Source: Actinomycetota bacterium (GTDB lineage: Bacteria > Actinomycetota > Actinomycetes > S36-B12). From it: 40,297 nucleotides of DNA. The position numbers and the translations under genes are program-made. Positions within the stretch are counted from its first letter, which is position 1. Every line of letters starts with the position of its first letter. The DNA lies in assembly GCA_947449035.1 (NCBI GenBank), contig CANFQC010000021.1, forward strand, positions 1 through 40,297, in the 5' to 3' direction. Positions 17,008-19,551 of the stretch are shown here, one piece after another. Under the pieces are notes generated by a model, which did not search any database, was not told the DNA's origin, and saw only the letters and a list, made by a program, of their open reading frames with translations.

Positions 17008-17592
17008 ATGAGTCAGGCGACCCTCGACGAGCAATTGCGCTCGGATATCCAGCGCAGCGGTTACTACCCCGACCTCGTGTCCGATGCCCTGAGCACGGCG
17101 CTCGCGGGCGAGGATCTCATCGCGTACGTCGTTCACCACGAGGCCACCTTCGAGCACGATGAGCTGCGTCGTCATGTGACCGTGCTCGCACTGACCCCGA
17201 CCCGCCTGATCGTGGGTCACACCGACGAGCACCCGGCCGATGAGACTCACCCGACCGCAACCGCCACGGCATCAACAGAGGCCGTGCGCATCGAACGAGT
17301 CGATTCCGTCGTCGTTACCCGAGTGGTGGGGGAGCCGGCTCGACATCAGCCCGGCGGCGCAGCTGCTGAGGTGGTTTTGACCATTGGCTGGGGTGCCGTG
17401 AGTCGCATCGACCTCGAACCCGCCACCTGCGGTGATCCCTCCTGTGAGGCAGATCATGGCTACACCGGAACCTCCAGCAACGACGATCTTTCCTTGCGCG
17501 TCTCCGAGGTTGCTGATGGAGCCGAGGTCGTAGCCCAGGCATTGGCCTTCGCGGCCACCTTGTCGCACGCGACCGCGGCGCGACTGCGCTAG
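17008..17592 (+). CDS. DUF5998 family protein
   Basis: The 194-residue cytoplasmic protein has no membrane segment. It begins [28 protein letters not shown], has a central beta-rich part ([29 protein letters not shown]), an Asp/His-rich segment ([14 protein letters not shown]) and a helical end. This matches DUF5998, an actinobacterial family that I recall directly before alkaline-phosphatase-like genes, as here. It overlaps the next gene by one base (TAGTG), so the two are co-translated. ATG 17008 is preferred to upstream codons because it follows a leaderless-type -10 element. Function is unknown. Confidence 0.8.
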
Positions 17593-18674
17593 TGCGCGGT
17601 CTCGCCGACGTACCCGCCTCGGCAGCGGCAAGTCTCGGCGTTCCTGGTTTCACCGACACCCTTGACCTCGGCGTTGCCCAGCATGCGGTGATCGTCCTCA
17701 TCGACGGCCTGGGCTGGAACTCTCTCCAGGCTCATCGCGACATCGCCCCGTGCCTGACGTCAGGCCAGCACACGTCGACTGAGATTTCGACTGTCTTTCC
17801 GTCGACGACGCCGGCAGGGCTTGGCACGTTAGGCACCGCGTTGCTTCCGGGAGCGCACGGAATGGTGGGTGCGAGTTTCTGGCTTCCGGAGGCTGACGAG
17901 ATTCTCACGCCGTTGCACTGGAATGACGGTGTAACGCCCGTGGCAGTGCAACCGGAGTCGACTGTCTTCGAGCGCGCGGAGCACCATGGCATCGAGGTCA
18001 CGACAGTTGCACCCGGGGCGTACTCCGATTCAGGCCTGACACGTGCCGTGCTGCGCGGTGGCTATTACGAGGCAGCTGACTCACTCGCCGCGCGAGTGGA
18101 GCACACTCACCGGCTCACGCGGTCATCCGCGCGATCTCTGACTTATGTCTACTGGCCTGATCTTGATCGCACGGGTCACGCGAAGGGCGTGGGCTCCGAC
18201 GAGTGGAAGTCTGATCTTCGCCAGGTGGATCGACTTGTGGCGCAAATTGCCGAGAGCCTGCCGTCGAACGCCGTGGCACTAGTGACCGCTGATCACGGAA
18301 TGGTGAACTGCGATGAACGCGTGAGTATTGACGACGATCCGGCGTTGTCTGCGGGGATCGTGCGAATCGCGGGCGAGCCACGGATGCGTCACGTATACGT
18401 GCGCGAAGGCTCGGTTTCCGACGTGGTGGAATCGTGGCGACACCGACTCGCGGGCAAGGTTGATATCCGCACGCGTGAGGAGCTCATTGACTCCGGGTTG
18501 CTGGGGGAGGTAGAGCTCGATATCGCCGAACGCATCGGTGACTTTGTCGCGATCTCTCGAGGAACAACGTCGCTCACGAGCTCATTTGACCCGAGGGTCT
18601 CGGGCTTGATTGGTCAGCATGGAGCCTTGACCGACGACGAGATGAGAATTCCCGCGATCGTGATGCGCGGGTAG
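17592..18674 (+). CDS. Alkaline phosphatase superfamily enzyme (nucleotide pyrophosphatase-like)
   Basis: The 360-residue enzyme has the two-metal site of type I phosphodiesterase/nucleotide pyrophosphatases: VIVLIDGLGW (D38), the nucleophile region FPSTTPAGLGTL (T72 or T73), PDLDRTGH (D190, H196), VTADHGM (D234, H235) and the late GQHGAL histidine. No signal peptide is seen, so it should act in the cytoplasm. GTG 17592 shares its G with the stop of the DUF5998 gene. The gene ends 10 bases before the convergent sepH. The fold and metal site are clear; the substrate cannot be read from the sequence. Confidence 0.88.
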   Translation: MRGLADVPASAAASLGVPGFTDTLDLGVAQHAVIVLIDGLGWNSLQAHRDIAPCLTSGQHTSTEISTVFPSTTPAGLGTLGTALLPGAHGMVGASFWLPEADEILTPLHWNDGVTPVAVQPESTVFERAEHHGIEVTTVAPGAYSDSGLTRAVLRGGYYEAADSLAARVEHTHRLTRSSARSLTYVYWPDLDRTGHAKGVGSDEWKSDLRQVDRLVAQIAESLPSNAVALVTADHGMVNCDERVSIDDDPALSAGIVRIAGEPRMRHVYVREGSVSDVVESWRHRLAGKVDIRTREELIDSGLLGEVELDIAERIGDFVAISRGTTSLTSSFDPRVSGLIGQHGALTDDEMRIPAIVMRG

Positions 18675-18684
18675 GGCCGATCTT

Positions 18685-19470
18685 CTACTGATCGTCGCCG
18701 CGAGTGGCGCCGAAGAGGATTTCGTCCCAGCTGGGCACGCTTGCGCGGCGACCCTTGGCCTTTGGCTTCGCGGTCTTCTTCGCAGGAGCTTTCACCGCTG
18801 GCACGTCCAAGGTCTGCTGCTCATTCTCTGGCGCAGACTCGATAAACATCTCTGTCTCGACAACCTCGATCACCTCGACGGTCTCGATGACCTCGATGAT
18901 CTCCTCGCGCGCGATCGCGACAGTCTCATTCGGCTCACTCGGAACTGCCACCAGATGCGGGCGTGACAGGGACTGTGATTGCCGCAAGGTTTCGATGATC
19001 TCGGAATCGTCGACAACCGATACCGCGGCGTCGTCGGTGATGAAGTCGATCTCGTCGGGCTCGGCCTCGACAAGCGTGACGCCCATCAGGTGGCGTGCAG
19101 TCTCGTCGAGCGGGTGAAGGTTGCTTCCGGCGTTGTCGAAAGTCCAACTTGCGCGGGCATTGCCGGCGCCGCGTGCATACGCGACTGTCACGATCCACTT
19201 GGCATCCTCGCGTCGCCACGAGTCCCACTCCACTGAGCCCAAATCGACGCCATCGGCCAGGAGGACGGCCTGCGCGCTTGCCGTCAAGCTCACGCCCGCG
19301 CGAACATCAACGGCTTGAGCTCGATCGGCGATGTATGCGCGCTCGGCCAGCGGCGGACCTGCATAGCGCTCGACCTTCGCGAGTTCCCAGCCCATCTCGG
19401 CTGCCACGACGTCAGGAGAGGCCCCGGCGCGAACGCGGGCCTGGATCTCCTTGGGGCTGAGCGGTTGCAG
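18685..19470 (-). CDS. sepH: Septum-associated protein SepH (DUF3071), atypical N-terminus
   Basis: The protein has the two ends of SepH, an FtsZ-regulating division protein of actinobacteria: the DUF3071 helix-turn-helix (LQPLSPKEIQARVRAGASP, then ELAKVERYAGPPLAER) and a C-terminal PSWDEILFG motif, joined by an acidic Glu/Val-rich linker and a Lys/Ala stretch. SepH normally starts about 50 residues earlier with a beta-rich part. Here the frame is closed by TGA at 19480-19482, and only CTG 19470 (AGGAG at 19476-19480, five bases upstream) gives the helix-turn-helix; GTG 19407 would remove half of it. Either a CTG-started short form or a frameshift near 19470-19483 is possible. I annotate from CTG, 261 residues. 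TAAGTT (minus strand, 19505-19510) may be the -10 element. Confidence 0.7.
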   Translation of the reverse strand: MQPLSPKEIQARVRAGASPDVVAAEMGWELAKVERYAGPPLAERAYIADRAQAVDVRAGVSLTASAQAVLLADGVDLGSVEWDSWRREDAKWIVTVAYARGAGNARASWTFDNAGSNLHPLDETARHLMGVTLVEAEPDEIDFITDDAAVSVVDDSEIIETLRQSQSLSRPHLVAVPSEPNETVAIAREEIIEVIETVEVIEVVETEMFIESAPENEQQTLDVPAVKAPAKKTAKPKAKGRRASVPSWDEILFGATRGDDQ

Positions 19471-19551
19471 GATGACTCCTCATGTGACGGGTGTACTGCC
19501 TGACAACTTACCGCTTTGCGCAGTGCGTGGGGGACATCGGTGGAGTCCGCG

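Follow-up and report, generated by a model that had tools for sequence, protein, structure and literature searches.

Where does translation of sepH begin in this Actinomycetota genome, and is a gene without an ordinary start codon, and without the N-terminal part of its product, still a working gene? The window, meaning the whole stretch of 40,297 nucleotides that was analysed, is one entire contig, C21, of an assembly (G000) that totals 2.36 Mb in 87 contigs and is 97.7% complete. SepH is known from Streptomyces venezuelae and Mycobacterium smegmatis, where it binds FtsZ and stimulates the assembly of filaments; in the S. venezuelae protein the helix-turn-helix (HTH) is the FtsZ-binding element and the C-terminal part helps (PMC7968930). 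In E. coli systems CUG is a poor initiator (PMC11497404, PMC9845219), and CUG starts are very rare in annotated bacterial genes, 20 open reading frames (ORFs) in 69 genomes being the figure quoted in PMC9845219. The terms “start codon” and “isoform” occur nowhere in the available text of PMC7968930, and a literature search, mostly at title and abstract level, returned no report on a non-standard start of SepH. The reading developed here, to which a probability of roughly 0.85 is given, is that the window encodes a functional short SepH which would initiate at a conserved CUG, having lost its N-terminal module and kept the HTH and the C-terminal motif.

The sepH locus

Counted from the CTG and including the stop codon, the sepH coding sequence occupies 18685–19470 on the reverse strand and encodes 261 amino acids; the stop-to-stop frame (19479–18685, reverse strand) is open throughout. 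The gene is recognised by Pfam DUF3071 (110.5 bits, cut-off 26.9) and by the NCBIfam equivalog SepH (163 bits, cut-off 40), the matches beginning at profile position 54 of 168 and 55 of 351, respectively. By profile comparison the protein is thus short of the approximately 53 N-terminal residues of DUF3071, and no ATG, GTG or TTG lies in frame ahead of the conserved LSPKEIQARVRAG segment, which bears out the initial claim of the sequence-only reading that sepH has no normal start or N-terminus here. An MFS transporter gene lies upstream (20823–19552, reverse strand), with only 81 bases between its stop and the CTG, as against the approximately 159 bases of the lost N-terminal part. At the other end, a phosphodiesterase-family gene (17592–18674, forward strand) is convergent with sepH.

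The remainder of the protein is intact. Its HTH region (19315–19455, reverse strand) comprises predicted helices at residues 6–14, 19–26, 30–37 and 41–52, and across 39 aligned short proteins Q10, R12, R14, G16, G27, R35, P39, E43 and R44 are invariant. The C-terminal SepH motif VPSWDEILFG (18709–18738, reverse strand) is likewise preserved, with P246, W248 and E250–G254 identical in 39/39 of these proteins. In the predicted structure the HTH helices (6–52) and the following beta region are well ordered; a search of the PDB found no sequence relative. The window protein resembles the S. venezuelae and M. smegmatis proteins in its Pfam and NCBIfam family, its HTH region and its VPSWDEILFG-like motif, and differs from them in the absence of the first ~53 DUF3071 residues and in having CTG in place of a standard start. 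As the HTH binds FtsZ in S. venezuelae and the C-terminal part helps, short SepH retains the regions of known importance.

The start site

The putative start codon CTG (19468–19470, reverse strand) is preceded by a Shine-Dalgarno (SD) sequence, AGGAG (19476–19480, reverse strand), whose GGAG at 19479–19476 leaves a spacer of 5 nt; the sequence-only reading had correctly called this pair well placed. It had also put a TGA 30 bases upstream of the conserved segment. The TGA is there, in frame (19482–19480, reverse strand), although it stands 12 bases ahead of the CTG and about 21 ahead of LSPKEIQ. It leaves three codons only in between and, since it lies four codons before the CTG, no other start is possible in the window. 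The same TGA, AGGAG and CTG recur in L002, a genus mate from an independent assembly that is identical to the window over the last 40-odd aligned bases, CTG included.

The sole standard start found by the ORF listing is a GTG (19405–19407, reverse strand), 21 codons downstream of the CTG. Translation from this GTG, with the CTG an untranslated remnant, is very unlikely: it would drop Q10, R12, R14 and G16, invariant residues of the first two HTH helices, and would leave the conservation of CTG and GGAG in 78/78 family loci against it. Across the family, moreover, the next standard start has no consistent position, varying from 3 to 62 codons downstream of the site, and in 37 of the 60 CTG loci where it was located the distance exceeds 15 codons, which places it beyond invariant residues.

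An ATG at 19483–19481, 13 nt ahead of the CTG, is one base out of frame, as first reported, and it is present in L002 too. That a one-base indel, whether sequencing error or true frameshift, masks a start at this ATG has a probability close to negligible, given that the block is identical in the other assembly, CTG included, and that L003, of the same genus, carries the CTG without any ATG overlapping the SD. The ATG overlaps the SD itself and would contribute five extra residues only, not the missing module, and the arrangement is found family-wide.

Conservation within the family

A sepH match was obtained in 77/85 genomes of the window’s family, and short sepH is present in 3/3 genomes of its genus. 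The start-site set comprised the 5′ regions of 78 sepH loci from 76 genomes, covering 13 of the 14 genera; the 77th matching genome, G006, has a C-terminal piece only and was left out, and the contig-end fragments L054 and L078 were retained in the counts. The loci are related by descent and the counts are not independent events. Two genomes each hold two sepH loci, G032 (L048, L051) and G074 (L052, L059), possibly as paralogues or mixed assemblies.

The codon aligned with the window CTG is CTG in 71 loci, GTG in four, TTG in three and ATG in none, and GGAG stands 4–9 nt upstream, mostly at exactly 6, in all 78; an SD at conserved spacing is thus combined with variation confined to NTG throughout (78/78). 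Among the 68 loci that lack the N-terminal module, the site codon is CTG (61), GTG (4) or TTG (3). Comparison with close relatives, proposed as a check in the sequence-only reading, places the CTG arrangement in L002, L003 and the family at large. Over 60 distinct contexts from these 68 short loci, information reaches 1.5–1.9 bits in GGAG and 1.4–2.0 bits in NTG, against 0.01–0.33 bits at positions −20 to −11 and 0.10–0.19 bits at −6 to −4; positions −3 to −1 show partial conservation as well (0.5–1.1 bits). Inside sampled ORFs of the window genome, GGAG at the window’s distance precedes about 1.4% of ATG, GTG or CTG codons, so its occurrence with NTG in 78/78 family loci is more than chance.

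Two controls bear on whether such a pattern might arise from a coding leucine. Within the gene, Leu, Val or Met makes up at least 85% of nine other alignment columns; eight of these have NTG in 28–51% of loci and one, which is Met-rich, in 72%, CTG making up a third of Leu codons in family sepH genes. Outside the family the site could be aligned in 55 of 102 full-length loci, with NTG in 37 (10 of them ATG), CTC in 15, GTC in two and ATC in one. The excess of NTG inside the family gives a Fisher p of 2e-8, or 1e-7 on distinct contexts, both uncorrected for relatedness. A class-wide constraint to NTG was rejected, as 18 of the 55 alignable genes carry CTC, GTC or ATC. The SD and NTG pattern is, on this comparative evidence, best read as a ribosome-binding site with its start codon and not as coding leucine. 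The option of a real CTG start, one of those listed at the outset, is strongly supported by conservation across the family.

It might be proposed that a longer protein starts at an unrecognised upstream codon, either non-ATG or heading a short divergent N-terminus such as the ATG of L003 would give, and that the CTG is an internal leucine. In-frame ATG, GTG or TTG codons do lie upstream of the site in 24/68 short loci, and three of the 24 follow an SD, namely the ATG of L003 (11 codons upstream), the TTG of L042 (62 codons upstream) and the GTG of L065, which immediately precedes the CTG. This proposal is nevertheless very unlikely: in the window three codons only intervene between TGA and CTG, an in-frame stop lies within 12 codons upstream in 25/68 short loci, and an internal leucine would use CTC or CTT as it does elsewhere in sepH. 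From the upstream stop to the site, 44 of the 68 short loci lack any standard start, the site codon being CTG in 39 of these 44; in the window, as in 39/68 short loci, no standard in-frame start gives the conserved protein. L003 could use its upstream ATG, which weakens the case for strict dependence on the CTG in that species, even though GGAG and CTG are both preserved there.

Given initiation at the CUG, the lack of ATG calls for comment. Among the 78 loci the first base of the site codon is C, G or T and never A. This hints at selection favouring weak or regulated initiation, with mutation bias or common descent as possible contributors.

Decoding and mRNA structure

Use of CTG starts by the organism in general was assessed over 440 kb of the window genome (twenty 20-kb stretches and the window), holding 342 ORFs of at least 150 codons. 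SD-preceded codons near ORF starts were in excess for ATG (31 observed, 5.6 expected) and GTG (22, 8.2), with no excess for CTG (6, 7.8), and general CTG starting was accordingly rejected. SD-preceded CTC codons numbered 21 with 11.6 expected, perhaps by chance, which marks the survey as noisy. An SD and CTG ahead of any standard start occurred in 2/342 ORFs, sepH and a 308-amino-acid ORF in L252; the latter, with its CTG 61 codons in, was judged by eye not to be credible as CTG-started, leaving sepH as the only credible case in the surveyed 440 kb.

A standard initiator tRNA anticodon arm (GGG/CCC) was found in 62/82 family genomes, representing 14/14 genera. An altered initiator tRNA behind the CUG starts is therefore not supported, and the standard arm argues against any special decoding aid for CUG. 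A search for the arm in the window assembly gave no match, and the tRNA may be hidden in an assembly gap. The CUG start thus seems to be a feature of the sepH gene and not of the organism’s decoding. In the predicted fold of the window mRNA the start codon is paired (unpaired probability 0.01), which counts against a CUG start; over the family the unpaired probability averages 0.36 and varies, and mRNA structure was set aside as a common feature.

Loss of the N-terminal module

The DUF3071 N-terminal beta module (profile positions 1–53) is absent in 68/78 family loci, the window included, and kept in ten (L016, L018, L058, L064, L067, L069, L071, L072, L073 and L076). Class-wide, SepH matched in 144/148 genomes, and nearly all of the matches listed run from the first profile positions, for which reason full-length SepH is taken as the rule in the class. 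Order-wide, 151/166 genomes matched and, outside the family, most among the matches listed begin at positions 1–3. In the predicted structure of the full-length L016 protein, three strands (4–29) and a low-confidence helix (32–51) precede an HTH from residue 55. The CTG site corresponds to residue 50, in the low-confidence helix or linker between the beta module and the HTH.

A module profile built from 47 modules was run on three frames upstream of the family loci (234 sequences). At E<0.01 none of the frames upstream of the window sepH matched it, and matches of 2–4 bits in other frames of L006, L007, L032 and L033 are at chance level over 234 sequences. Genome-wide, no module was found at E≤1 in G000, G001 and G002, while four full-length genomes used as positive controls returned E values of 3e-24 to 1e-20; some other short-sepH genomes gave weak matches, the best at E 0.008 (G083). 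The sequence-only reading had likened the peptide VPHALRKAV to part of the missing domain. Such a frame exists, at 19535–19509 and not at 19541–19515, and it does not hold up as a DUF3071 remnant: besides the absence of a profile match, the window’s alignment to the L016 N-terminal peptide is no better than 18/200 shuffles, and three of its nine residues differ in L002.

Decay of the N-terminus was a further option raised. As history it is sound, for N-terminal remnants with stops or frameshifts lie upstream of L009, L030 and L046 in other genera. These remnants could be taken to mean that sepH is itself a decaying pseudogene deprived of N-terminus and start, which is exceedingly improbable, as short sepH is found in all three genomes of the genus, the frames are open, and family members share a conserved HTH and C-terminal motif.

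Short SepH with the same boundary also occurs in the class-level family f10 (L139–L143) and in genus g16 of family f3 (L144, L145). In both, ATG is present at the homologous site or at most a few residues away (7/7), with AGGAG before it in g16, whereas the window has CTG; these losses are apparently independent of that in the window’s family. Losses at one boundary point to the N-terminal module being dispensable for some SepH proteins.

Upstream element and probable origin of the start

A −10-like element, TAAGTT (19505–19510, reverse strand), is a candidate promoter that would leave a short leader to the CTG. TANGTT occurs within 100 nt upstream in 53/68 short loci, compared with a mean of 3.0 and a maximum of 7 in 200 dinucleotide shuffles; a standard sigma-70 scan upstream of sepH found no full promoter. 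In L016 and L018 the element falls within codons of the N-terminal part (G-A-K-F) and precedes the CTG by 76 nt. By eye, an inverted repeat (CGCTA, 9 nt, TAGCG) is visible about 50–80 nt before the CTG in L016, L018, L009, L030 and L045; it overlaps the −10-like element and is a possible operator. GACAC, the WhiA-binding motif, recurs by eye about 75–90 nt before the start codon in L011–L017 (genus g11), where it may belong to the upstream gene. A fusion of sepH with the upstream gene in L016 was considered and discarded, the open frame being without a Pfam match.

The site is homologous to coding sequence of the module-bearing relatives. In the ten full-length family genes GGAG…CTG is present as codons, typically for E-I-A-L or E-M-A-L, and the site codon is CTG in 10/10; f3 loci L087, L088, L089, L091, L093 and L095 have E-I-A-L with CTC at the site. 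Among the short genes of genus g10, a decayed N-terminal peptide can be read around the element in L009 (with an internal stop), L030, L046 and L044, its score being matched by 0/200 shuffles for each of the first three and by 1/200 for L044. The same search found none in L041 and L043, and only weak remnants in L019, L021, L028, L035 and L045.

A SepH tree was built from 86 rows, namely 11 outgroup rows and 75 family loci, the other three of the 78 being excluded as near-copies or fragments. On it the long and short states need at least four changes, starred branches forcing at least three, and a loss-only scenario takes about nine losses by hand count; the outgroup rows do not fall on one side of a branch and the deep part of the tree is unsure. 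The simplest history would be that the internal start was in place first and that the module was lost several times afterwards.

Proposed mechanism and significance

GGAG ATC GCC CTG would once have been ordinary codons, E-I-A-L, of a longer protein, and the ~53-residue beta module would have been lost in the window’s lineage. Transcription probably starts just downstream of TAAGTT, after which the ribosome would bind AGGAG and initiate with fMet at the CUG (19470). The resulting short SepH, with HTH and C-terminal motif retained, most likely still promotes FtsZ assembly, and selection favouring weak or regulated initiation may maintain the CUG. A more specific history is tentative, and on balance doubtful: a two-start ancestry, in which a promoter-like element and an SD with CTG inside the long frame gave short SepH beside the full-length protein, the long form being lost repeatedly, and CUG persisting to the exclusion of ATG because the SepH:FtsZ dose is set by weak or IF3-sensitive initiation. 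It is proposed on this basis that the ten module-bearing family loci make two SepH forms. ClpB of M. tuberculosis offers a likeness, existing as a full-length and an N-terminally truncated isoform; it differs in that short SepH stands alone in 68/78 family loci.

The infC gene, encoding IF3, has an AUU start used for autoregulation. It is a bacterial gene with a conserved non-standard start, as proposed here for the window sepH, the gene and codon being different; IF3 regulation of the window sepH is conjecture only.

In practice, tools limited to ATG, GTG and TTG would mis-start or drop this sepH, cutting into the HTH. If the CUG start is real, its persistence in at least 13 genera, never reverting to ATG, would make sepH a natural system for asking why cells retain a poor start codon; as SepH regulates FtsZ, dosage is a plausible reason.
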